Origin: Anaerolineae bacterium
GTDB lineage: Bacteria; Chloroflexota; Anaerolineae; Caldilineales; Caldilineaceae
DNA length: 42,796 bases
Direction of reading: 5' to 3'
NCBI GenBank assembly: GCA_030432295.1
Contig: JAUIHI010000046.1
Span: 1 to 42,796, forward strand
Below, piece after piece: positions 1,039 through 42,415 of this stretch. A program made the translations under genes and the position numbers. Position 1 is the first letter of the stretch, and each line of letters begins with the position of its first letter. The notes under the pieces are model-generated. The model was given only the letters and a program-made list of their open reading frames with translations. It ran no database searches and was not told the DNA's origin.

Positions 1039-1927
1039 AAAAGAGTTGTCGCCCCGGCACAGCCACCCGCACCCGGTAGACGCTCGTCGAGGCAGTCATA
1101 TACAGAGTGCAGAGGTCGTCGTCGCCCCAGGCGAAGTTGGCACAGCCCTCCGGCGCGCGGATGACGCCTAGATCGTTGGCGTTGGCGTCGAAGATGTGTA
1201 TGCCCCCAGGACCGCAACTGAAGAGGTTGCCCGCGCTGTCCACTTTCATCCCGTCGGGCACGCCGTCGGCCTCGCCGGTGACGTCCGCCCAGAGTCGCCC
1301 ATTCGCCAGTGTGCCGTCGGCCTGCACATCAAAGACGCGGATGTGGCCCTGTATTGTGTCGTTGACAAAAAGCCGCTTCTCGTCCAGGGAGAAGCAGAGT
1401 CCATTCGGCCCCACAAAATCGTCCACCAGCAGTGTCAATTCGCCGTTTGTCGGGTCCAGCCGATAGACGCCGGGAAAGTCCAGTTCCTGCTCCCGGGCCA
1501 CACCCCAGGGGACAATACGGCCAAAGGGCGGGTCGGTAAAGTAGACCGAGCCATCGCTTTTGACCACAATATCGTTGGGGCTGTTGAGTTCCTTGCCCGC
1601 GTGATGGCTGGCCAGCACTTCATAGCCGCTGCCGTCCACATTCGAGCGGGCCACCCGGCTGCTGGCGTGCTCACAGGTGAGGATGCGCCCCTGGCTGTCA
1701 TAGGTGTTGCCGTTCGCCATCTGGCTGGGACGGCGAAAATCGGTCAGCCCGTCGGCTGCGCTCCAGCGGTGGATGGCGTTGCCGATGATATCGCTGAAGG
1801 TCAGGTGCTTTTCATAGGGATGCCAGATGGGGCCTTCGGTGAACTGGAAACCGCTGGCGATCTGTTCGATGGCCGCGTCGGCGGCGATGATTTGGGTCAG
1901 GCGGCTGTCGCGTATTTCGATGGGCAT
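1037..1927 (-). CDS. SMP-30/gluconolactonase family protein (296 aa)
   Basis: Six-bladed beta-propeller of the SMP-30/gluconolactonase/LRE family, which hydrolyses sugar lactones or related esters using one divalent metal. The usual metal ligands are in place: Glu31 in FTEGPIWH, Asn118 in NSPND or Asn175 in GPNGLCFS, and Asp225 in GVPDGMKVDSAGN. The length (296 aa) is normal and there is no signal peptide. AGGAGA sits about seven bases before the ATG, so the start is secure. It lies upstream of the alpha/beta hydrolase on the same strand with about 100 bp between; the two could be co-transcribed. It is divergent from the LLM oxidoreductase across 180 bp that must hold both promoters. Confidence 0.9.
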   Translation of the reverse strand: MPIEIRDSRLTQIIAADAAIEQIASGFQFTEGPIWHPYEKHLTFSDIIGNAIHRWSAADGLTDFRRPSQMANGNTYDSQGRILTCEHASSRVARSNVDGSGYEVLASHHAGKELNSPNDIVVKSDGSVYFTDPPFGRIVPWGVAREQELDFPGVYRLDPTNGELTLLVDDFVGPNGLCFSLDEKRLFVNDTIQGHIRVFDVQADGTLANGRLWADVTGEADGVPDGMKVDSAGNLFSCGPGGIHIFDANANDLGVIRAPEGCANFAWGDDDLCTLYMTASTSVYRVRVAVPGRQLF

Positions 1928-11222: not shown

Positions 11223-11333
11223 GGCTCATTGGGATTGTCCGTGGTAAACCCGCTGCGGTTTCGATACGACCGGAAACTGCCCCGGTCTACTCAACCTGCG
11301 CTAGTCCTCAGCCACGGACAATCCCAATGAGCC
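11223..11333. repeat. MITE-like element B, copy 1 (22-bp perfect terminal inverted repeats)
   Basis: A 111-bp element with perfect 22-bp terminal inverted repeats beginning GGCTCATTGGGATTGTCCGT, with a GC-rich centre (CGATACGACCGGAAACTGCC). The same sequence recurs at 29914-30025 and, more diverged, at 41706-41803. It encodes nothing and is too short to be autonomous. No clean target duplication is visible at this copy. Confidence 0.8.
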
Positions 11334-20013: not shown

Positions 20014-20271
20014 CGTTTCTCCCCTTGTTGGCTATTTGCCGATATCGATATGTTTCATTGAACTGAACTTGCATAAAGTGCGGTCGCCCATCCTGCTCCT
20101 TGAATCTGAAACAGGCAAGAATTCCATCCAAGGTCGATCTCCTTTTGCTTGCAATGCTTCTCGACTTCCGCCTGATAATACAGATCAATGTGGTGAGACG
20201 TCATCACCACAAGTGGTGATTGATGTGGTGATTGATGTGGTGATCGGTAAATGGAATAATGTGAGGCAAAT
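20014..20271. other. intergenic region with a GTGGTGAT direct and inverted repeat cluster
   Basis: Gene-free stretch between the DUF4386 start and the regulator's terminator. The first 150 bp should hold the DUF4386 promoter; no clear box is seen. From 20177 it carries ATCACCACAAGTGGTGAT (a palindrome) and two tandem 12-bp units GTGGTGATTGAT. This part is repeated at 42024-42100 with one 12-bp unit fewer. Confidence 0.6.
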
Positions 20272-20312
20272 AAAAAGCCCCGGCCAGTGGTTCGACAACC
20301 GGCCAGGGCTAG
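20272..20312 (-). terminator. rho-independent terminator of the first MalT-like regulator
   Basis: On the minus strand, downstream of the stop at 20334, GCCCTGGCCGGTTGTCGAAC folds back on the following CACTGGCCGGGGC and is followed by TTTTTA. The stem is GCCC/GGGC plus GGCC/GGCC plus GGTT/AACC with small bulges. Confidence 0.75.
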
Positions 20313-20333
20313 GGGGTGGTGTTTGCGTGTTGG

Positions 20334-23045
20334 TTAGTACAGATTAATATCCTCAGCCCGGTGGACAGCGGCTCGACGGTTGTTTACCCCAAGCTTGTTG
20401 TAGATATTTTTGGTGTGGGTACGCATGGTGTTCAAAGAGACCATGAGGGTTTGGGCAATTTCTGGTCCGTTCAATTCAGTTCTGAGCAGCCTCAACACTT
20501 CAAGTTCACGTTCGCTCAGGGGTTCAACTAGAGGCTGCAAGCTGACGCTTTGCTTCCCCGGGGGTGTAGGATGAACATCTCTTTGCTCTTCGAAAGCAGA
20601 AAGCAATCTATCTACATAGTTCGGCATTATTCCTTGTGCAGCAGCATCAGACAAGAGTTCTGCCATCGGCAACCCTTCATCTGCAAAAATGCGGACATAG
20701 CCTTCTGGCTCGGCCAAGGTCAAGGCACGCGCCAGCGGCACGCGAGCCAAGGGGAGATTTTCCTGTGCCTGATGTGCCACTGCCTGTAGCAATAGAATCT
20801 CGATCATACTCGTCAGCCATCGGCCTTCTTGCGCTGCTTTTAAGAGGCGATTGAGTAGTGCCATCGCCTCGAGCATTGCGTTGTCATTGCCCCCTTGCTT
20901 GTACTGGGCGATGCGCAATCTGGCGAGGGTAATATGCTCGAATTGGCGCAGGAAGCTGAGATCGTCGTCTACAGATAGACCTTGTTTGTGCTCCCAACTT
21001 AGCGCAGCGGTCAATTTGCCTTGGGCAATCCACACCCGCGTTTTCAATGCCGAAATCGGACGTAGATTAGGAATGAGTGTTCTGAAATAGAGGCGTTCGG
21101 CCTCGTCGAGCGACGTAATCGCTCCATCCATATCCCTTTGTGATTGCTTGATTTGTGCTTGGGCAATCCGCAAACGATACGGCCAAGCGGCTAACGCCTC
21201 CTGGCCCAATGCCTCGCTTTTTGACAAGTTTAGCAGAACCTCTTCCACATTGCCACGTTCATGGTGCAGGCCAGCCAAGCCTAAATAGAGGTCTGCCGTT
21301 CCCGGTATGGCGGGATCACCTTGCGTCAGCGCAAGCTGCAAAGCTCGGTCATAGACGCTCACTGCATCTTGAAGCCGACCTTGAGCTATTCGCATGTTGG
21401 CTAGGCAAAATGTGCCGCCAATGGCAAAGATGAATTGACCAGCCATCTGGAAAACGCTCATGGCATCGTCAACAGATTGGTAGGCGGTATCTAGCTCACC
21501 TTGTCCCCAATACATCAGCCCTAAAATAAACATCGCTGGGATGCGTTTAATGTAATCATCTTCAGGCAGCAAGTCGAGCGCTTGCTGCGCATACTTCATG
21601 GTGCTAGGCGTATCTCCGAGCAACTGTGCATAGTAGGCACGAGCGTTGGCTATGAACACTGGCAGCGACTGAAACTGTTCTTCATCTACGATAATTATCT
21701 GGGGGGATGGTTGTTGGAGGCGTTGTTCTACATCGTGCAAGCGGGCATCGGCAGCCGCCATGTCGCCGCTATTTAGAAAGGCCCAGGCGTAGGCCATGCC
21801 GAGGACGGGTCTGGTGCGGACGATCTCATCTGGCACTGTTTTTGCCCAGCCAAGCCAAGCAGCGGACTGATACGTTCTGTCCATTGTGGGCCAGGCCAGC
21901 TCAAGCAGGTCGGCCACCCGCTCGACATCTTTGGCGGCAAGCGCGTGCTGAATCGCTTTGATTTCCTGGCCATTGTTTTCATACCATACGCTGGCACGGC
22001 CATTTAAGTCAGCTATGGTGTCAGGTTGTTGCTGTTGGAGTCGCTGTCGCAGCAAATCGGCAAAGAGATGGTGATAGCGGTACCAGCGTCGCTCGTTGTC
22101 CAGGGGAATGATGAACAGGTTAGCATGTTCGAGATACTCTAACGTTTCTTGCCCGGAAGCAGAGGCGTCGCACAGAACAGCATCACACAGGGAACCACAG
22201 AGTTGGTCGAGGATAGATGTGCCTAGCAGGAAGGTCTGCACGGGTTCGGACTGTTGCCCCAAGACCTCTTCCAGCAGATAGTCCATCACAAAGCGGTGGC
22301 TGCCAGTGAAGGAGTGGATAAAGTCGGCAGTATCGGCTCGCCCCTGCATGGAAAGAGCGGCTAGTTGCAGTCCGGCAATCCAGCCTTCGGTACGCCTTTC
22401 CAGCGCGGCTATCTCGTCGGTTGAAAGTTCTAAACCGGTCACTTGTTTGAGGAAAACGGCCGTTTCTTCCAAAGTAAAACGCAAATCAGCCGCTCGCAGT
22501 TCAGTCAGCAGGCCGCGCACGCGCAGGCGGGGCAAAGGCAGCGGCGGGTCTTCGCGGGTGGTGATGACCAGATGCATCTGCGGCGGTAAGTGTTCCAGCA
22601 AAAAGGTGAGTGCCTGATCAACATCTGGCGCATCGACAACGTGATAATCGTCAAAAACGAGAGCGAATTCTTGCGGGATGACGGCTATTTCGTTGAGCAA
22701 GGCTGTCATGACGGCTTCGATTGCTGGCGGCTGTGGCGATTCAAGCATGCCGGACACCCATTTTCCGATTTCCGGTGCGAGTGTTTGCAGCGCAGCAATG
22801 AAGTAGGTCAGAAAGCGGGTGAGTTCACTATCCCGTTCGTCTAATGAGAGCCAGGCAAACGGCCGTTCTCCATCAGCAATCCATTCACTAACCAACGTCG
22901 TCTTGCCAAAACCGGCCGGAGCCGAGATGAGGGTCAGTTTGCGGTGTAGCCCTTGGTTGAGCTTGGCAATGAGGTGGGGGCGCGGGACGAGCGACGGTCG
23001 TTTTCGAGGAATATACAGTTTGGTTTGGAGCAAGTTACCGAGCAT
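20334..23045 (-). CDS. MalT-like LuxR-family ATP-dependent regulator (903 aa)
   Basis: Large STAND-type activator. An N-terminal NTPase has Walker A SAPAGFGKTT near residues 41-50 and an ALVFDDYH Walker B-like strand near 155. It is followed by a winged-helix region, a long helical TPR-like sensor (about 400-800) and a C-terminal LuxR helix-turn-helix (LSERELEVLRLLRTELNGPE...KNIYNKLGVNNR). These proteins oligomerise on ATP and an inducer, then activate transcription. Two start codons are adjacent, GTG 23046-23048 and ATG 23043-23045. No Shine-Dalgarno is present; a -10 TATACT ends eight bases before the ATG, suggesting a leaderless message. Its 3' end is duplicated at 42024-42415. A paralogue lies at 33133-35874. 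Confidence 0.92.
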   Translation of the reverse strand: MLGNLLQTKLYIPRKRPSLVPRPHLIAKLNQGLHRKLTLISAPAGFGKTTLVSEWIADGERPFAWLSLDERDSELTRFLTYFIAALQTLAPEIGKWVSGMLESPQPPAIEAVMTALLNEIAVIPQEFALVFDDYHVVDAPDVDQALTFLLEHLPPQMHLVITTREDPPLPLPRLRVRGLLTELRAADLRFTLEETAVFLKQVTGLELSTDEIAALERRTEGWIAGLQLAALSMQGRADTADFIHSFTGSHRFVMDYLLEEVLGQQSEPVQTFLLGTSILDQLCGSLCDAVLCDASASGQETLEYLEHANLFIIPLDNERRWYRYHHLFADLLRQRLQQQQPDTIADLNGRASVWYENNGQEIKAIQHALAAKDVERVADLLELAWPTMDRTYQSAAWLGWAKTVPDEIVRTRPVLGMAYAWAFLNSGDMAAADARLHDVEQRLQQPSPQIIIVDEEQFQSLPVFIANARAYYAQLLGDTPSTMKYAQQALDLLPEDDYIKRIPAMFILGLMYWGQGELDTAYQSVDDAMSVFQMAGQFIFAIGGTFCLANMRIAQGRLQDAVSVYDRALQLALTQGDPAIPGTADLYLGLAGLHHERGNVEEVLLNLSKSEALGQEALAAWPYRLRIAQAQIKQSQRDMDGAITSLDEAERLYFRTLIPNLRPISALKTRVWIAQGKLTAALSWEHKQGLSVDDDLSFLRQFEHITLARLRIAQYKQGGNDNAMLEAMALLNRLLKAAQEGRWLTSMIEILLLQAVAHQAQENLPLARVPLARALTLAEPEGYVRIFADEGLPMAELLSDAAAQGIMPNYVDRLLSAFEEQRDVHPTPPGKQSVSLQPLVEPLSERELEVLRLLRTELNGPEIAQTLMVSLNTMRTHTKNIYNKLGVNNRRAAVHRAEDINLY

Positions 23046-23085
23046 CACACAAAAGTATACTGGAAAGGCTCACGATTTGCCCAAA
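23043..23085 (-). promoter_or_regulatory. probable leaderless promoter of the first MalT-like regulator
   Basis: On the minus strand TATACT (23054-23059) is followed by eight bases and the ATG, so transcription would begin at or next to the start codon. No ribosome-binding site exists. The -35 is weak (TTGGGC at a 19-bp spacing). Confidence 0.5.
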
Positions 23086-25246: not shown

Positions 25247-25300
25247 AGCATAGCGGTTTCCTGGTATTGCTTTCTAGATACGAAAGTATCGTTTAGGGTC
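25247..25300 (-). promoter_or_regulatory. operator box 4 and -10 of the anchored hydrolase
   Basis: TACGAAAGTATCGTTTAGGG (25279-25298) is a diverged copy of the CCGAA-N7-TTCGG box seen from the other strand. A TATGCT hexamer (25247-25252) lies 27 bp from its inner end toward the gene. The outer half (CGTTTAGGGT, 25290-25299) is the target duplicated by the neighbouring element A copy. Confidence 0.5.
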
Positions 25301-25412
25301 AATACCATTCAAATAAGGTTATTCAACCTGCGGAGTAGGCATCCTCAGATGCCGGTCTCCTCGATGAGAGCCGCATCTGAGGATGCTCACTCCACTTATT
25401 TGAATGGTATTG
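25300..25412. repeat. MITE-like element A, copy 1, with 10-bp target duplication
   Basis: 113 bp bounded by perfect inverted ends CAATACCATTCAAATAA / TTATTTGAATGGTATTG, with an inner palindrome GCATCCTCAGATGC ... GCATCTGAGGATGC. It is flanked by CGTTTAGGGT at 25290-25299 and 25413-25422, a 10-bp target duplication. Same length as, and inverted relative to, copy 2 at 28112-28224. Confidence 0.85.
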
Positions 25413-25427
25413 CGTTTAGGGTATTGT

Positions 25428-25931
25428 TTACAGCAGAAAAAGCAGCAGGATGAGCAAAGTTGTGACTAAGGTGGCAACGGCCGTTCGGATTCTGTTCCAC
25501 TGATTCCAGCGCGGCTCAAAGTTGCGGCGGGCTGTCGCCTGGGCAGCAGGGGGCAACTTGTCTACATTCAGCGTTTGCAGTTGATTGTTGAGCGGCACGT
25601 TAATCACGCCAGTGGGCAGCTGCACACCAAACAGATAAAGCGCCGCTGCCATCAGCAGAATGGCTTTGCCGGTCATATCCAGTTGGCCGAAACCGAGAAC
25701 GGCCGTTAGCAGCAAGGCCAGCACAGACCCCAGCCAAACCAGAATAAACAAAGGGTGATTGTTTTGAATCACACCATCCATCACCTGAAAAGCGCGGATG
25801 AATTCGCCATCATTCAAAGATTTGATGCCCGGCATGGTCACGACAGCAAAGGTGAACAGCAGGCCCGTTGTCAGCGCACAAAACATTGTGGCCAAAATAA
25901 GCAAAATGGGGAAGAAGGTGGTTGTTAACAT
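25428..25931 (-). CDS. DUF1772 family membrane protein (167 aa)
   Basis: Four membrane helices: 7-30, 60-82, 88-105 and 148-167. The NNHPLFILVWLGS and NVPLNNQLQ...FEPRWNQWNRIRT segments match DUF1772 (anthrone-oxygenase-like) proteins. Enzymatic activity is known for some fungal relatives; in bacteria the role is not established. AAGGAG lies seven bases before the ATG. Last gene of the five-gene minus-strand operon that begins at 28098; 35 bp separate it from the CPBP gene. Element A copy 1 begins 15 bp after its stop. Confidence 0.82.
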   Translation of the reverse strand: MLTTTFFPILLILATMFCALTTGLLFTFAVVTMPGIKSLNDGEFIRAFQVMDGVIQNNHPLFILVWLGSVLALLLTAVLGFGQLDMTGKAILLMAAALYLFGVQLPTGVINVPLNNQLQTLNVDKLPPAAQATARRNFEPRWNQWNRIRTAVATLVTTLLILLLFLL

Positions 25932-25966
25932 ATGATTTCTCCTTGTTCTACAGTCGAGCTTAAAAA

Positions 25967-26722
25967 TTATTGACTAGGAACGAATTGCGGCTTATCTGCC
26001 GATTGGTAGCGCTTATTGCTGCGCAGCACAACGAGTACGGCCGCGCCCATCCACACCATTCCATTCAACGCGGCAACGCGCACATCCGAAAGAGCATTCT
26101 GGAGAATGAAGAACCCCACATTCACGCTGAAATGGAACAGGGTGGGCAACACCACGTTGGAATTGGTGCCCTGAACCAGCCAACCCATCACTGCCGAATA
26201 GCCAATGGTGGAGAACACAAAGAACAGCATAAATACCGGGCCGTTTTGGAAGTTGCCGATGTGCCATACGCCCCAGAGAACGCCTACCACCAGAAAAGCG
26301 ACAACATTATTACGCTCTCTTGTCAGCAGGTTTTGGGCGTAACCGCGCCACCCCAGCTCTTCCCCAAACGCACCGAGCATAATGCCCACCAACATTACCA
26401 AGAACGCTGGTCCATTGATGGACGGAACACTGATAGGGGCAATAAACTGGTTGTAAACCAGAAAGAGAATCGCTGGCACAACCAGCGGCATTACCAGCGC
26501 CGCCAGATATTTCAGCGGATGGCTATCCTTTAACGTCACGGTCAGTTTCACCTGATCCTTTCTGAACAGCCGGAGCATGACCAAAGCGGCAATCCCTGGC
26601 CCAAACTGCGGTAGCGAGACCTGAGTGGGATCAATACCGAGAAGCTGCTGTACTATTGACAAAAGAATCGTGAATACAAACGTGATAACAAAGAACAAGC
26701 CAATCTTTCTAAAAATTTTCAT
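25967..26722 (-). CDS. CPBP-family intramembrane protease (251 aa)
   Basis: Intramembrane glutamic/metallo-protease-like protein of the CPBP (Rce1/Abi) family with about eight helices. Motif 1 FGEELGWRGY gives Glu121, Glu122 and Arg126; motif 2 WGVWHIGNF gives His154; motif 3 FHFSVN gives His197. All catalytic positions are present. The start was chosen from two tandem ATGs: AAGGAG is six bases before the second (26722). Its target is unknown; relatives process prenylated proteins, peptides or act in bacteriocin immunity. It follows the NAD(P)-binding gene by about 15 bp. A second CPBP gene is at 39795. Confidence 0.88.
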   Translation of the reverse strand: MKIFRKIGLFFVITFVFTILLSIVQQLLGIDPTQVSLPQFGPGIAALVMLRLFRKDQVKLTVTLKDSHPLKYLAALVMPLVVPAILFLVYNQFIAPISVPSINGPAFLVMLVGIMLGAFGEELGWRGYAQNLLTRERNNVVAFLVVGVLWGVWHIGNFQNGPVFMLFFVFSTIGYSAVMGWLVQGTNSNVVLPTLFHFSVNVGFFILQNALSDVRVAALNGMVWMGAAVLVVLRSNKRYQSADKPQFVPSQ

Positions 26723-26738
26723 CATTATCTCCTTGAAA

Positions 26739-27362
26739 TTAGTTAGACAATCCGGGGGTTGCCCGCAGGTAGGTATCATCTGTCAACTGGCTCAACATAA
26801 ATTCAGCCACATCTGCCACCGAAATTTTCAGGGTGATGGCCTTGTCGGTTGCGGCAAAGCCGTGACGATATGTGCCGGTACGGTCACCATTAGTCAAAGC
26901 GCCGGGGCGGACAATGGTCCAGTCGAGATTACTCTGCCTGATGAACGTCTCCTGGCGGTTGTGGTCGGCATAGGCGCGGCGTAATAGCAGCCCAAACATC
27001 AAATATTTCCAGTAAGCGTTCAGGTTGCTGCGGCTGTCGCCAACTCCTAATGTGGATTGGGAAATCAGACGACGTACATTGGCCTGCTGCATCGCTTCGA
27101 TTATGTTTTGCGTCCCTTGTGACCGCACCGTGCCGTTCGGCCCGGCACCAAGCGACGATAAAACAGCATCCTGTCCCTGTACGGCCGTTGCCACATCATC
27201 GGGGTTCAACACATCCCCCTGCGCGACTTTCAGATTCGGATGGGTTTGCTCGACCTTGGCGGGATTGCGGACGAAGGCGGTTACGGTGTGGCCCTGTTCG
27301 AGTGCCTGGGCAACAACTTCTTTTCCTGTGGTGCCTGTGGCACCGAAAACAATAACGTTCAT
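26739..27362 (-). CDS. NAD(P)-binding atypical SDR / NmrA-like protein (207 aa)
   Basis: Atypical short-chain dehydrogenase (SDR_a5/NAD(P)H-binding type). The Rossmann motif FGATGTTGKEV is at residues 5-15, DVLNPDDVATAVQGQDAVLSSLG at about 55-77, and the C-terminal half contains WTIVRPGALT. There is no obvious YxxxK catalytic pair, as is common in this group, which often senses redox state or binds flavin/NAD rather than catalysing. AAGGAG sits nine bases before the ATG at 27362; an upstream 18-codon extension has no support. Third gene of the five-gene operon. Confidence 0.87.
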   Translation of the reverse strand: MNVIVFGATGTTGKEVVAQALEQGHTVTAFVRNPAKVEQTHPNLKVAQGDVLNPDDVATAVQGQDAVLSSLGAGPNGTVRSQGTQNIIEAMQQANVRRLISQSTLGVGDSRSNLNAYWKYLMFGLLLRRAYADHNRQETFIRQSNLDWTIVRPGALTNGDRTGTYRHGFAATDKAITLKISVADVAEFMLSQLTDDTYLRATPGLSN

Positions 27363-27399
27363 TTGAATTCTCCTTGTATCAAACTTATTCTCAATTCGA

Positions 27400-27804
27400 T
27401 TATGAAACTGCGACAACGAGGCAGGTAGCGGTGATCATGAGCGCCACCGGCCCAAACAGCCACCGTTCGGTGCGGCTGAGGGAGGCAAAGTTGCCCAGCG
27501 TATTTAGCGCCATAAACCCGGTCACTATCCAGGCCAACATGCCAATGCTTGTTGGTGACGGCACGCTGCCAACCAGCCCTGCGCGGTAGCGGACGATGTA
27601 GATGAACATGCCCAAAACGAGGATGGCGGCCATGCTGGCCACGCGCAACCCCGGCGTCAGCTCCGTTTGGCGTCCGCCCCAGGCCATTGTAATGGGCAGG
27701 ACGCCCAAAGCCAGCAGCAACTGTGCTGCCATAAAGAGGCCCAAAAGGACTGTGGCGAGATTGGCTGCGATTACGGAGTAATTGTTATCGGCTAAAAAAG
27801 TCAT
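27400..27804 (-). CDS. four-helix membrane protein, paralogue of the 30061 gene (134 aa)
   Basis: Four predicted helices (about 12-35, 52-72, 85-105 and 112-132). I do not recognise a named family, but it is clearly paralogous to the protein at 30061-30486: both share AWGGRQ/LWGGRQ followed by ELTP-LRV, FIYI-R-RAGL, and TG-M-LNTLGNFAS ending ER-VFGP. GGAGAAA precedes the ATG. Second gene of the operon starting at 28098, with 37-39 bp gaps on both sides. Confidence 0.8.
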   Translation of the reverse strand: MTFLADNNYSVIAANLATVLLGLFMAAQLLLALGVLPITMAWGGRQTELTPGLRVASMAAILVLGMFIYIVRYRAGLVGSVPSPTSIGMLAWIVTGFMALNTLGNFASLSRTERWLFGPVALMITATCLVVAVS

Positions 27805-27843
27805 GATTTGTTTCTCCTTCGTAAATCGGATTGCTTATGGTGG

Positions 27844-28098
27844 TCATTGTTTGCTTTTCAGACGGGTGACTGAAACAAGCGGCATGCCCAGGTCCCGAAT
27901 CTTCCGCAGCAGTCCGTACAGGGCGGCCTGGTCGATGACTGGCCCAGTCAGGCAGGTAATGCCGTTTTCTGCCTGGGTAAGGGTGAAGCCCACGAATTCG
28001 GCTTCCCACAGGGGGCTGAGATGGCCCTCAAGTTTGATCTGGTAGGTTTGTGGTGTCTGCATCATCCGTTTCATCTGTTTCATCTCTGTGTCTTGCAT
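27844..28098 (-). CDS. conserved small protein of unknown function (84 aa)
   Basis: Soluble 84-residue protein with a beta-rich body (YQIKLEGHLSPLWEAEFVGF, then GITCLTGPVIDQAALYGLLR and LGMPLVSVTRL). I have the impression of a widespread hypothetical family with the conserved LTGP-VDQAALHGLL core that often sits by oxidoreductase genes, but no function is known to me. There is no Shine-Dalgarno before any of the candidate starts; ATG 28098 is preceded by AGACTAAGACCAT, the original -10 region before element A inserted. First gene of the five-gene operon. Confidence 0.68.
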   Translation of the reverse strand: MQDTEMKQMKRMMQTPQTYQIKLEGHLSPLWEAEFVGFTLTQAENGITCLTGPVIDQAALYGLLRKIRDLGMPLVSVTRLKSKQ

Positions 28099-28111
28099 AT
28101 GGTCTTAGTCT

Positions 28112-28224
28112 CAATACCATTCAAATAAGCGGAGTGAGCATCCTCAGATGCGGCTCTCACCGAGGAGACCGGCATCTGAGGATGCCTACTCCACAGGCCG
28201 AATAACCTTATTTGAATGGTATTG
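28112..28224. repeat. MITE-like element A, copy 2, inside the operon promoter
   Basis: 113 bp with the same ends as copy 1 and the inner palindrome in the opposite orientation. It is flanked by the 10-bp duplication GTCTTAGTCT at 28102-28111 and 28225-28234. The right-hand copy of the duplication overlaps the -10 hexamer of the box-1 promoter, so the element now separates that promoter from the 84-aa gene. Confidence 0.85.
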
Positions 28225-28228
28225 GTCT

Positions 28229-28285
28229 TAGTCTATAAAATTAGCGGGTTCCGTTCGACCATCGAAAGTTCTATTTGGGGGTGTA
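28229..28285 (-). promoter_or_regulatory. operator box 1 and -10 of the five-gene operon
   Basis: Reading toward the operon: TACACCCCCAAATAGAACTT followed by TCGATGG (28285 to 28259), then exactly 26 bp from the end of the TTCGA half-site to TAGACT (28235-28230). Boxes 2 and 3 have the same 26-bp distance to TAAACT and TAGACT. Before insertion of element A, the -10 would have ended eight bases before ATG 28098, i.e. a leaderless start. Confidence 0.6.
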
Positions 28286-29913: not shown

Positions 29914-30025
29914 GGCTCATTGGGAATGTCCGTGGCAGACTCGCTTCGGCTTCGATACGACCAGAAACTACCCCGGTCTACTCACCCTACGCTTGCCCGC
30001 GGACCACGGACGATCCCAATGAACC
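29914..30025. repeat. MITE-like element B, copy 2
   Basis: 112 bp, ends GGCTCATTGGGAATGTCCGT and ACGGACGATCCCAATGAACC, centre CGATACGACCAGAAACTACC as in copy 1 at 11223. Flanked by GCAATGTA (29906-29913) and GCAATGAA (30026-30033), a probable 8-bp target duplication with one change. Confidence 0.8.
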
Positions 30026-30060: not shown

Positions 30061-30486
30061 TTATCCATTCGCTTTTCCTGTTCGTGAAGCCGCCACAATG
30101 AAACTTGTAACCGCCAGCAGCACCGTCATCGGGCCAAACACGAAGCGCTCGACATGGCTCACCGAAGCAAAATTGCCCAATGTGTTCAGAACCATGTAGC
30201 CCGTCACCACCCAGGCCGCCACACGAATGAGGGTTGGCTGCGGCATTTTGCCTGCCAATCCCGCCCGGCAGCGAATGATGTAAATAAACCCGCCCAAAAT
30301 AACGGCCGCAACCACGCTGGTCACACGTAGGGAGGGCGTCAATTCTGGCTGCCGGCCGCCCCACAGCATCGAAATCGGGATGATGCCAGCGGCAGCCAAC
30401 AGCTGCACAACAACAAAGATAAGAAAAAGAACCGAGGCAATATTGGCTGCATTGCGTACAAAAATGGGTCTCTCCAGGTAAGTCAT
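30061..30486 (-). CDS. four-helix membrane protein, paralogue of the 27400 gene (141 aa)
   Basis: Start at ATG 30484-30486 (MTYLERPIFV) with GGAGAAAA before it; the frame runs 24 codons further upstream but that part is the duplicated leader, not protein. Four helices at about 15-38, 52-72, 88-108 and 112-135. Shares LWGGRQPELTPSLRV, FIYIIRCRAGLAG and LNTLGNFAS with its paralogue at 27400. Unknown function. Box 2 lies about 110-165 bp upstream, so this may be the first gene of a transcript continuing to the 276-aa protein and flavodoxin. Confidence 0.8.
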   Translation of the reverse strand: MTYLERPIFVRNAANIASVLFLIFVVVQLLAAAGIIPISMLWGGRQPELTPSLRVTSVVAAVILGGFIYIIRCRAGLAGKMPQPTLIRVAAWVVTGYMVLNTLGNFASVSHVERFVFGPMTVLLAVTSFIVAASRTGKANG

Positions 30487-30596: not shown

Positions 30597-30652
30597 AGTT
30601 TAGAAAATGGGAGCGGCTTTGTCAGTCACCGAAAGTTCTATTCGGGGATGTA
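30597..30652 (-). promoter_or_regulatory. operator box 2 and -10 of the 30486 gene
   Basis: On the minus strand TACATCCCCGAATAGAACTT followed by TCGGTG (30652 to 30627) contains the perfect half-sites CCGAA and TTCGG seven bases apart. TAAACT (30602-30597) follows after exactly 26 bp. Confidence 0.65.
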
Positions 30653-30965: not shown

Positions 30966-31021
30966 TACACCCCCGAATAGAACTTTCGGTGGCCGACAAG
31001 CGCTGCTCGGTTGTCTAGACT
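30966..31021 (+). promoter_or_regulatory. operator box 3 and -10 of the secreted serine hydrolase
   Basis: TACACCCCCGAATAGAACTT followed by TCGGTG (30966-30991), again CCGAA-N7-TTCGG, with TAGACT at 31016-31021 exactly 26 bp after the dyad. The start codon of the hydrolase is about 85 bp further on. Confidence 0.65.
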
Positions 31022-33132: not shown

Positions 33133-35874
33133 TTACAAGATATTCAACTCTTGAGCTCGACTGACAGCCTGGGTGCGACTGGAAACGCTCAATTTACCAA
33201 AGATGTTATTGACATGCTTTTTAACGGTGCTGAGGGCAATCACCAACTCATCGGCAATGGCCTGATTCGTCAAGCCATTGCCGATTAAAGCCAGCACCTC
33301 AAGTTCGCGGTCACTCAATGGCTCGATTAACATTTGGTTTGGATCAGGCGGCGCAGAGACCGCATCATGTGCGGGGTCTATTGCCTGCATTAAGCGGATA
33401 ACGTATTCAGGAGAAGCCCCTTGTGCCAAAGCTGCCGCTAACAATTCCCGCATGGGCTGCCCTTCATCGACGAAGAGCCGCACGTATCCTTCCGGTTTAG
33501 CCAGAGATAGGGCGTGCTGCATGGCGGCAACGGCCGTTTCCATCTCTCCCTGTGCCTGATAGGCGAGCGCTTGCAGCAATAGAATTTCAATCACGCTTTG
33601 GCCTCTGCCCCCTGCCTCTGCCGCCTGCAAAAGACGCTCCAGCAAACCCACGGCCTGCGTCATGGCAGCCTCTGACCGGTCTTGCCGGTATTGCGCGATG
33701 AGGATGCGGGCTAACGTCATATGATGACATTCACGCAGGTAGCTGAGATCATCATCTGCCGTCAGCCCTTCTCCGTGTGCCCAATCCAACGCTTGCGCAA
33801 TTTTGCCCTGCGCCAACCAGAGCTGTACCTTCAGCGCCGCAGCTGGACGCACATCGGGAATCGGATCGCGCCTATACAGCCGTTCCGCCATATGCAGATG
33901 ATCCAGGGCGTCACTCAGGCTTCCTTCAGCCAGTTTCAACCGCGCCATCGCCACATGCCAACGAGAGACGCAGCCGGGTAGTATCGATTGTTGACCCAGA
34001 GCTTCCTGTCCTTCTTGCAGAAATTGCGCAGCTTTCTCCAGGTTGTTCCACTCCAGGTGCAGCGTGCTTAGGCCGATGTACTGATCGGCCGTTTCCTGCA
34101 AAACCAGCTCGCCTTGCTCCACCGCAACCTGCAATGAATGGGTGTAAATACGCGCCGCCTCATGGAGATGGCCCTGCTCTGCCGTCAAATCGGCCAGCAT
34201 CGCCATCGCCGTCCCCACGATTTGGAAAGAACCGCTGCGTACCATTTGCATATTCGTCAGACAGTCAGCGATGGCGTCGCCTGCCGCCGTCAGACTGCCC
34301 TCTGCCCAATAAGCCAACCCCAGAAACAGGTCGGCAAGGCCGCGTGAGTAATGTTCGTCCTCAGGGAACAGACGCAGCGCACGCCTGGCGTTTTGGATAG
34401 CGGTGCGGCTGTCGCCGCGGCCCAGGGCCAAATAGGCGCGGGCAGAGGCGATAGAGGCTGGCAGCGTCTGATAGGCGGTTTTGTTGACAAAGACGATTTC
34501 TCCTTGATCGGAAGGATCTTTAGCCACAGCCACCAACGCCTGCGCGGCACTACGCAAACAGGCATCGGCTTTCTCCAGCTCACCATCATCCAGCCAGGTC
34601 CAGGCGCAGCCCATATTCAGTACAGGCCGGGTGTGTACCAAGGCCGCTGGCAGCGCCAGCACCCAGCCGCGCCAGGTCTCGGGCCGGTGCCCGTTAAAGA
34701 GAGCTGGCCATTCCATTTCTATGAGCGTCGCTGCGTGGGGGAAATCCTGGGCAAGTAGTGCGTGGCGGATGGCATCGGTCGGAGCATTGTTTTGTTCATA
34801 CCAAAGGCTCGCGCGCTGGTGCAGGTTAGATACCACATCAGGCTGCTCTCGCTTCAGGTGAGCTTGCAGCACGTCGGCGAAAAGATGATGATAGCGATAC
34901 CAGCGGCGTTTATCATCCAGGGAGATGACAAACAGGTTGCCTCGTTCCAGTATCTCCAGCAGTGTGCTGCCGCCTGTTTCCCCTGTCACTGCATCGCACA
35001 GAGACCCGCTTAGTTGACTGAGAATTGAAGTTTGCAGCAGGAAATTGCGAATCGGGTCAGGCTGGTGCTGCAACACTTCTTCAACCAGATAGTCAACGAT
35101 ATACCGGTTGTCACCAGCAAGCGTTTGTATAAATTCGGAGCGTTTTCCCGGCCCAGGAAAGTCAGGCTGGCTCTGCAGCGCCAGGGCGGCCAACTGAAGA
35201 CCAGCAATCCAGCCTTCGGTGCGGGTTTCCAGTGAATCGACATCTTCGACTGAGAGGTTGAGACCCATTGCCTGGTTGAGGAATGTGGCGGCTTCTGCGG
35301 GGGTAAAGCGCAGGTCGGCGGCGCGCAGCTCGGTCAACTGGCCCCGCACCCGCAGCCTGGCCAGGGGCAAGTTCGGATCTTCCCGGGTGGTGATGACCAA
35401 GTGCATGTGGGGCGGCAGATGCTCAAGCAGAAACGTGAGGGCGTCGTTAGCTGGCTTGGTATCGATCACGTGGTAGTCGTCAAGCACCAGGACAAAGTCA
35501 TCCGGGATTGTGGTGATTTCATTGAGCAGGGGTATCAGAATCGACTCGATTGGCGGTAGTTGAGGGGATTGGAGCGCACCCAACACGCCTTCTCCAATAC
35601 TCGGGGCAATCGTCTGCAAAGCAGCGACGAGATAGGAGAGAAAACGTGTGGGGTCGTTATCCCCTTCGTCCAAGGATAGCCAGGCACCTGGTCGTTCAAG
35701 ACCGGCAACCCATTCGCTGACCAGTGTGGATTTCCCAAAGCCGGCCGGGGCAGAGATGAGGGTCAGTTTACGATGCAGCCCGCCGTTCATGCGCTGGATC
35801 AGGCGGGGGCGGGCTACGGATTTAGGACGAGCCGGGGGGAGATAAAGTTTGGTGGCGAGAATGGGTGTAGACAT
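33133..35874 (-). CDS. MalT-like LuxR-family ATP-dependent regulator (913 aa)
   Basis: Paralogue of the regulator at 20334 with the same architecture. Walker A is SAPAGFGKST (Lys48 counted from ATG 35874), then FVLVLDDYHVIDT, a sensor of TPR-like helices, and the C-terminal LuxR domain LSDRELEVLALIGNGLTNQA ... KKHVNNIFGKLSVSSR. An ATG five codons earlier exists, but TATCAT overlaps it; a promoter TTGCTG-N17-TATCAT ends six bases before ATG 35874, and no Shine-Dalgarno is present, so a leaderless start is favoured. Converges on the secreted serine hydrolase. Likely ligand-activated transcription activator; inducer unknown. Confidence 0.92.
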   Translation of the reverse strand: MSTPILATKLYLPPARPKSVARPRLIQRMNGGLHRKLTLISAPAGFGKSTLVSEWVAGLERPGAWLSLDEGDNDPTRFLSYLVAALQTIAPSIGEGVLGALQSPQLPPIESILIPLLNEITTIPDDFVLVLDDYHVIDTKPANDALTFLLEHLPPHMHLVITTREDPNLPLARLRVRGQLTELRAADLRFTPAEAATFLNQAMGLNLSVEDVDSLETRTEGWIAGLQLAALALQSQPDFPGPGKRSEFIQTLAGDNRYIVDYLVEEVLQHQPDPIRNFLLQTSILSQLSGSLCDAVTGETGGSTLLEILERGNLFVISLDDKRRWYRYHHLFADVLQAHLKREQPDVVSNLHQRASLWYEQNNAPTDAIRHALLAQDFPHAATLIEMEWPALFNGHRPETWRGWVLALPAALVHTRPVLNMGCAWTWLDDGELEKADACLRSAAQALVAVAKDPSDQGEIVFVNKTAYQTLPASIASARAYLALGRGDSRTAIQNARRALRLFPEDEHYSRGLADLFLGLAYWAEGSLTAAGDAIADCLTNMQMVRSGSFQIVGTAMAMLADLTAEQGHLHEAARIYTHSLQVAVEQGELVLQETADQYIGLSTLHLEWNNLEKAAQFLQEGQEALGQQSILPGCVSRWHVAMARLKLAEGSLSDALDHLHMAERLYRRDPIPDVRPAAALKVQLWLAQGKIAQALDWAHGEGLTADDDLSYLRECHHMTLARILIAQYRQDRSEAAMTQAVGLLERLLQAAEAGGRGQSVIEILLLQALAYQAQGEMETAVAAMQHALSLAKPEGYVRLFVDEGQPMRELLAAALAQGASPEYVIRLMQAIDPAHDAVSAPPDPNQMLIEPLSDRELEVLALIGNGLTNQAIADELVIALSTVKKHVNNIFGKLSVSSRTQAVSRAQELNIL

Positions 35875-35909
35875 GGGGGCATGATACATCAGACCAGGCA
35901 GTTCAGCAA
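35872..35909 (-). promoter_or_regulatory. leaderless sigma70-type promoter of the second MalT-like regulator
   Basis: On the minus strand TTGCTG (35909-35904), a 17-bp spacer and TATCAT (35886-35881), then six bases and ATG. Spacing and hexamers fit a housekeeping promoter whose transcript starts at the A of the start codon. Confidence 0.6.
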
Positions 35910-39385: not shown

Positions 39386-39540
39386 CTAAACCCATTTCCA
39401 CGCATACCAAACGGTCAGCACGTTAAACCCAAGCCCGACGACAATCAAGAATTGATCATAGGCTGAAGGATAGGTAGGCAGCCCAATCAGATTGAAGCCG
39501 AAAAAGAATGTCAGTAGTTCACGATTGTTCTCAAAATGGC
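39386..39540 (-). pseudogene. C-terminal remnant of a small membrane protein
   Basis: On the minus strand a frame reads FFFGFNLIGLPTYPSAYDQF, continues LIVVGLGFNVLTVWYAWKW and ends at a TAG (39386-39388). It has the look of the last two helices of a real membrane protein. Upstream it runs into element A copy 3 and no start is left. Family not identified. Confidence 0.5.
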
Positions 39541-39646
39541 GGAGTGAGCATCCTCAGATGCGGCTCTCGCCGAGGAACCCGGCATCTGAGGCGACGTCCT
39601 GAGTTCATCGAAGGGATGCCTACTCCACATCAAAATCGTGAACTAC
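39514..39646. repeat. MITE-like element A, copy 3, with altered arms and a nested insertion
   Basis: Contains the same core as copies 1 and 2 (GCGGAGTGAGCATCCTCAGA, then GGCATCTGAGG), but the outer inverted repeat is different (GTAGTTCACGATT / AATCGTGAACTAC). The right arm is interrupted by about 20 bp, CGACGTCCTGAGTTCATCGA, which looks like a separate intergenic repeat. No clear target duplication. The remainder of 39315-39794 outside this and the pseudogene holds nothing I can name. Confidence 0.7.
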
Positions 39647-39794
39647 CCACAATGCAGAGAGGGTTATACGAAACCTCCACTGTTCAAGTGTTCATAGCTT
39701 ATTCAGTGTGGTGGAGAAATGGGCAGCGGGCATAAGCTTCGCCGTCCGGCGACTGGTTTGGCGGCATAGTCGAAGACTCGTTCCTCTTCGCGTT

Positions 39795-42023: not shown

Positions 42024-42415
42024 AATACAGACGAATGTGGTGAGACGTCATCACCACTTGTGGTGATTGATGTGGTGATCGGTAAATTGAATAATGTGAG
42101 GCAAATAAAAAGCCCCGGCCAGTGGTTCGATAACCGGCCAGGGCTAGGGGCTGGTGTTTGCGTGTTGGTTAGTACAGATTAATATCCTCAGCCCGGTGGA
42201 CAGCCGTTCGGCGGTTGTTTACCCCAAGCTTGTTGTAGATATTTTTGGTGTGGGTACGCATGGTGTTCAAAGAGACCATGAGGGTTTGGGCAATTTCTGG
42301 TCCGTTCAATTCAGTTCTGAGCAGCCTCAACACTTCAAGTTCACGTTCGCTCAGGGGTTCAACTAGAGGTTGCAAGCTGACGCTTTGCTTCCCAGTGGAT
42401 GTAGGATGAACATCT
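42024..42415 (-). pseudogene. duplicated 3' end of the first MalT-like regulator (HTH domain plus terminator)
   Basis: These 392 bp match 20177-20580 nearly base for base; the only length difference is one missing 12-bp GTGGTGATTGAT unit. They encode the last 80 or so residues of the regulator, including the whole LuxR helix-turn-helix (stop at 42169), and its terminator. The frame is open from a TTG at 42375 and upstream to the breakpoint, but no ATG or ribosome-binding site is present, so a free DNA-binding domain is unlikely to be made unless a TTG is used. Confidence 0.8.
42107..42150 (-). terminator. copy of the regulator terminator
   Basis: Same stem-loop and T-run as at 20272-20312, within the 392-bp duplicated block; one base change in the loop (GATAACC for GACAACC). 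Confidence 0.65.

Follow-up and report, generated by a model that had tools for sequence, protein, structure and literature searches.

We examined a 42,796-bp stretch of DNA from an Anaerolineae bacterium of the Caldilineaceae (contig JAUIHI010000046.1 of assembly GCA_030432295.1, designated C51 within the 6.7-Mb genome; hereafter the window), in which two inverted copies of a 113-bp element bracket five co-directional genes. The two copies are most probably miniature inverted-repeat transposable elements (MITEs) of the IS4 family that inserted separately, the right one just 3' of the -10 of the operon's promoter, with a presumed effect in cis on the mRNA rather than through inversion of the DNA. 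This explanation is built on the ends of the elements, their target duplications, an autonomous relative and the position of the promoter, all of which were directly observed. The window elements add to the known IS4-family MITEs, and an earlier reading of the locus as a switch of the operon fails to hold up. For mobile-element biology, they are of value as a MITE family for which an autonomous IS4-family counterpart can be named, and as a clear case of a MITE that separates an operon from its regulated promoter. They also present a puzzle, in that identical hairpin fillers occur in the MITEs of two transposon families, and they suggest which parent gave rise to the MITE family found in the hupL gene of Thiomargarita, a question left open by earlier work.

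Structure of the paired elements

The left MITE occupies positions 25300..25412 (+ strand) and the right MITE positions 28112..28224 (- strand). Alignment of the left copy with the reverse complement of the right copy gave 108/113 identical positions, in runs of 25, 4, 32, 29 and 18, and the five mismatches are all transitions. The sequence-only reading, an earlier inspection of this DNA made without database searches, had described copies of equal length, nearly identical and oppositely oriented at these coordinates, which is exact. Both MITEs end in perfect terminal inverted repeats (TIRs) of 18/18 bp, CAATACCATTCAAATAAG, located at 25300-25317 and 25395-25412 in the left copy and at 28112-28129 and 28207-28224 in the right copy. 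A perfect 10-bp target duplication flanks each of them, CGTTTAGGGT for the left MITE (left copy 25290..25299, right copy 25413..25422) and GTCTTAGTCT for the right one (left copy 28102..28111, right copy 28225..28234). As the two duplications are unlike each other, the insertions were independent, in agreement with the earlier claim of separate duplications and separate arrival.

MITEs are understood here as sequences of 50-500 bp with terminal inverted repeats, no transposase gene and a target-site duplication for each insertion. At 113 bp, with their 18/18 TIRs and a perfect 10-bp duplication at each copy, the window elements have all of these features, and no transposase-sized reading frame was found within them. 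Each MITE taken alone folds as a single extended hairpin (roughly -64 to -69 kcal/mol, with z-scores near -11 to -12), a stability matched by no shuffled sequence, and is thus nearly symmetric. Their orientation is still legible, with 63/113 identical positions in direct alignment versus the 108/113 of the inverted one.

Terminal repeats and an autonomous relative

Statements on whole genomes come from pattern, BLAST or hidden Markov model searches of draft genomes, in which copies of MITEs and insertion sequences (ISs) may collapse or break contigs. Another genome of the same phylum contains a 1,482-bp IS (G398:C32:2284-3765) that begins and ends with the exact CAATACCATTCAAATAAG TIR and is flanked by a perfect 10-bp target duplication, TCTTTACGAC. 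Its transposase scores 198 bits against the NCBIfam model NF033592 (IS4 family), for which the cut-off is 115 bits. The window elements resemble this IS in their ends and in the duplication, and differ from it in containing only a palindromic filler instead of a transposase gene. With at most one mismatch, the TIR is present in 22/400 genomes of the phylum, compared with 0/400 for a reversed control pattern.

A related TIR, CAATGCCATTAAGTTAAG, bounds both ends of an IS in a Helicobacteraceae genome (L184), the transposase of which reaches 141 bits as an IS4-family member; no clear target duplication was seen in the flanks of this IS. When bacterial species were scanned, each by one genome, the matches listed for CAATGCCATTAAGTTAAG include loci from at least about ten phyla, and among these listed loci are at least dozens of 100-290-bp MITEs with duplications of 10-12 bp. 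Duplication lengths agree with the 10-12 bp of the IS4 type, being 10 bp both in the window and for the autonomous IS, and 12 bp in a further genome (G324). By their ends and duplications, the window elements are thus assigned to the IS4 family as putative non-autonomous mini-transposons.

In Pedobacter mendelii, a gene resembling short-chain dehydrogenases, possibly a passenger, lies within a 1,477-bp element (L132, 816-2292) that has related IS4-type ends and a duplication matching at 9/10 positions.

The operon promoter and the right MITE

The promoter pattern called box 1 consists of TACACCCCCGAATAGAACTTTCGGTG followed at fixed spacing by TCTAGACTAA, and rests on three aligned copies, all in the window. 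The copy belonging to the operon, AATAGAACTTTCG ... TATAGACT (28230..28275, - strand), lies directly upstream of the right MITE. The second precedes a paralogous 134-aa gene (30597-30642, - strand), and the third a gene encoding a beta-lactamase-fold protein on the + strand (30976-31021). These three are all the exact matches in the genome, and none was found in six congeners. The alignment bears out the sequence-only reading in so far as it had placed such a promoter outside the right element.

The duplication of the right MITE, which reads AGACTAAGAC on the - strand (28225..28234), shares positions with the 3' portion of the conserved -10 block. The promoter has therefore stayed intact, with the MITE directly after it. 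The operon mRNA would be expected to open with a 113-nt hairpin derived from the MITE, and 13 nt would separate the base of this hairpin from the annotated ATG of the 84-aa gene, the first of the operon. Such a 5'-leader hairpin appears a likelier effect of the right MITE than inversion of the operon. In the mechanism that we propose, each MITE would have arrived by its own cut-and-paste insertion, through a 10-bp staggered cut at a TTAG-containing target, and would have been transposed in trans by an IS4-type transposase now absent from the host genome. The right MITE sits immediately 3' of the -10 block in the box-1 promoter, and the resulting effect in cis would be on mRNA stability or translation, not on the arrangement of the DNA.

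Two large MalT-like LuxR regulators are encoded in the window at 20334-23048 and 33133-35889 (both - strand), and long stretches of the two genes share about 70% identity at the DNA level. They are candidates for the activator of box 1, and the three box-1 copies possibly form a local regulon of one of these two MalT/LuxR-type regulators of the window.

Copies in the host genome

Several observations weigh against this explanation or limit it. In pattern and BLAST searches of the 6.7-Mb genome, the window pair gave the only matches to the complete element and to its TIR, and neither an IS with these ends nor any further copy of the TIR was found in the host genome. Its six DDE_Tnp_1 matches all fall short of the NF033592 cut-off and fit the IS5, IS982 and IS701 models better. 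These searches thus found no autonomous parent IS in the host, the MITE pair therefore looks orphaned, and its mobility would be historical, since there are two copies only and no cognate transposase was found. The presence of a parent IS in the same genome bears on present mobility and is not needed for MITE status. The position of the pair is a second difficulty. By simple arithmetic, the chance that two random insertions fall 2.8 kb apart is about 2 × 2.8 kb / 6.7 Mb, or roughly 1 in 1,000, and MITE identity alone leaves this closeness unexplained. It would probably be due either to local hopping or to arrival of both copies along with the locus. In the six congeners nothing matches the operon at the DNA level, and the homologues in other genera are too distant for comparison with an orthologous empty site. 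Finally, the transcription start and the hairpin in the leader are predictions from the promoter alignment.

Alternative explanations

The hairpins are very stable, one of them close behind the final stop codon and the other close behind the promoter, and they might have been kept as RNA structures at both ends of the operon, acting as mRNA stabilisers, attenuators or processing sites. We consider this improbable. Neither MITE contains a T-run or a terminator-like call, and neither matches an Rfam family, on which grounds the terminator or attenuator reading was discarded. Moreover, the MITEs are not conserved at homologous genes in relatives, and position alone is no proof of selection.

The sequence-only reading had also proposed homologous recombination between the two copies as a potential on/off switch. 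In the form considered here, RecA-dependent recombination between the inverted MITEs would flip the 2.7-kb segment off the box-1 promoter, a form of phase variation. The 108/113 identity of the inverted copies is in its favour, as is the location of the promoter beyond the right copy, since the operon would run antisense to it once 25413-28111 was inverted. MITE inversion is moreover on record, as cited in the review PMC10969869, for the Correia elements of Neisseria, which like the window elements are small hairpin MITEs near promoters. Their ends and duplications are different, however, and inversion in Neisseria concerns a single element rather than an operon flanked by two of them. In the window, the longest identical block between the MITEs is just 32 bp, and a scan of window proteins that covered part of the small reading frames recognised no domain of a site-specific recombinase; the switch claim is thus unsupported. 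Four relatives have at least two homologues of the marker genes (L323, L324, L326 and L327), and in each of them those for the 84-aa protein, the 134-aa protein, orf170 and the hydrolase all lie on one strand, which is a weak test because the five-gene order is not kept there. No full IS4-type TIR was found near these homologues, a single TIR-like stretch with four mismatches being present in L327. Two independent insertions account for the arrangement, of which a single assembled state is known. The switch is considered very unlikely. A search of the literature library used here for inversion of an operon between MITEs found nothing.

Equally hard to credit is a composite mobile unit, in which the two MITEs are, or once were, the ends of a transposable block carrying the operon: stretches of genome between MITEs can be mobilised (PMC10969869), the Pedobacter element encloses a gene between related ends and the operon lacks a DNA-level match in the congeners, but each MITE has a duplication of its own, no cognate transposase was found in the host genome and the outer flanks CGTTTAGGGT and GTCTTAGTCT mismatch, so that the block did not arrive as one unit, and a composite transposon was ruled out for want of a single duplication common to the outer ends of the pair.

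The palindromic filler

Between their ends, the IS4-family MITEs of the window carry a palindromic filler, at 25332..25393 in the left copy (GGAGTAGGCATCCTCAGATGCC...GCATCTGAGGATGCTCACTCC) and at 28131..28192 in the right copy. A third filler-bearing element, at 39512..39648, belongs to another end class (CAGTAGTTCACGATTGT... on the left, with a degenerate right end) and has an extra insert of about 23 bp and no clear duplication. The filler (about 60 bp, GCGGAGNRAGCATCCTCAGATGC and its inverted counterpart) is not confined to IS4-type ends. Within the same genus it occurs between IS4-type ends with 10-bp duplications (AGTGAGCAGT, ACTGCTCACT) and also between CAGTAG(A/T)TCACGA ends (CAGTAGWTCACGA) with 5-bp duplications (GTATT, AATAT, AGACT, AAATT and ACTTT), the latter at loci that include L012, L014, L032 and L258. 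Both classes are present in the host genome, the first as the window pair and the second at C10:14891-15005 (duplication GTATT).

The second end class also bounds a 785-bp element of the host genome (C40:1962-2746) that contains a 229-aa remnant resembling an ISH3 transposase. This end class is tentatively regarded as ISH3-like, which the 5-bp duplications fit; the assignment is tentative because the remnant scores 88.6 bits against the ISH3 transposase model, under the cut-off of 225.

In other families of the phylum (L223, L228, L245, L254 and L255), IS4-type ends enclose different palindromic or repeated fillers, such as GACGCAAAGGCGCAAAG and CCCCCTCTCCCTGA...GGGAGAGGGGG. The filler of the window is also seen without either end class and as a tandem array (L260, L261, L029). 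The array, L029 600-857, comprises five tandem units with a period of 51 bp, each with one filler half (GCGGAGAAAGCATCCTCAGATGCGG). A palindromic repeat inside MITE ends is likewise known from QMITE2 of Coxiella and from the repetitive extragenic palindromic (REP) sequences and bacterial interspersed mosaic elements (BIMEs) (PMC10969869, PMC3733652). The window-type filler differs from REP/BIME repeats in its constant GGAG tag, GTAG standing directly before the palindrome in just 7/56 copies, and the filler was for this reason rejected as a GTAG-tagged REP/BIME.

The filler may be a module in its own right, exchangeable or mobile, that is carried between the ends of two transposon families, a suggestion that we regard as somewhat doubtful. 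If true, the MITEs here would have been made by swapping hairpin cassettes and not solely through loss of the interior of a parent IS. A plainer reading than cassette exchange is that a palindrome already dispersed in the genome was captured.

The hupL element of Thiomargarita

The hupL gene of Ca. Thiomargarita nelsonii is interrupted by a MITE, for which bases 1357..1561 were reported and whose family has matches on 260/439 contigs; no parental IS was found and a PD-(D/E)XK origin was proposed (PMC4853749). In the contig with the interrupted hupL (L329, G445:C175), we located a 183-bp element at 1368-1550 with the TIR CAATGCCATTAAGTTAAG and an 11-bp duplication, ACTGTTTGGAT. Element and duplications together span 1357-1561, which is the published interval (PMC4853749). 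The ends are those of the Helicobacteraceae IS with the IS4-family transposase, which points to an IS4-family parent. Judged by these ends, there is good evidence for such a parent of the hupL MITE family, contrary to the proposed PD-(D/E)XK origin. The family resembles the window elements in its ends (CAATGCCATTAAGTTAAG versus CAATACCATTCAAATAAG, 13/18 positions), its hairpin and its 10-12-bp duplications, and differs from them in its interior and in its abundance, against two copies in the window genome.

The operon and other features of the window

The sequence-only reading had recognised a five-gene operon between the inverted elements, and five open genes on the - strand were confirmed there. 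In the direction of transcription, they encode an 84-aa protein without a Pfam or NCBIfam match (27844..28098), a 134-aa protein that probably spans the membrane several times (27400..27804), an NAD(P)-binding protein (PF13460, 26739..27362), a CPBP/Rce1-like intramembrane protease (PF02517, 25967..26725) and a DUF1772/anthrone-oxygenase-like membrane protein (PF08592, 25428..25931). The left MITE lies 15 bp beyond the stop codon of this last gene. The 134-aa protein has a paralogue at 30085-30483 (- strand) with 54% identity and a box-1 promoter of its own. A search of plasmids with the DUF1772-like protein returned two distant Corynebacterium matches only.

The palindrome AACGGCCGTT / ACGGCCGT is frequent in the window, genes included (24350, 24421, 25070, 25166, 25477, 25699, 27181, 29568 and others, as raw occurrences given without an expected count). 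Dispersed repeats are also present, one of 85 bp with 86% identity (11223-11307 and 29914-29998) and one of 300 bp with 98% identity (20224-20523 and 42059-42358), the second copy of the latter lying near the contig end.

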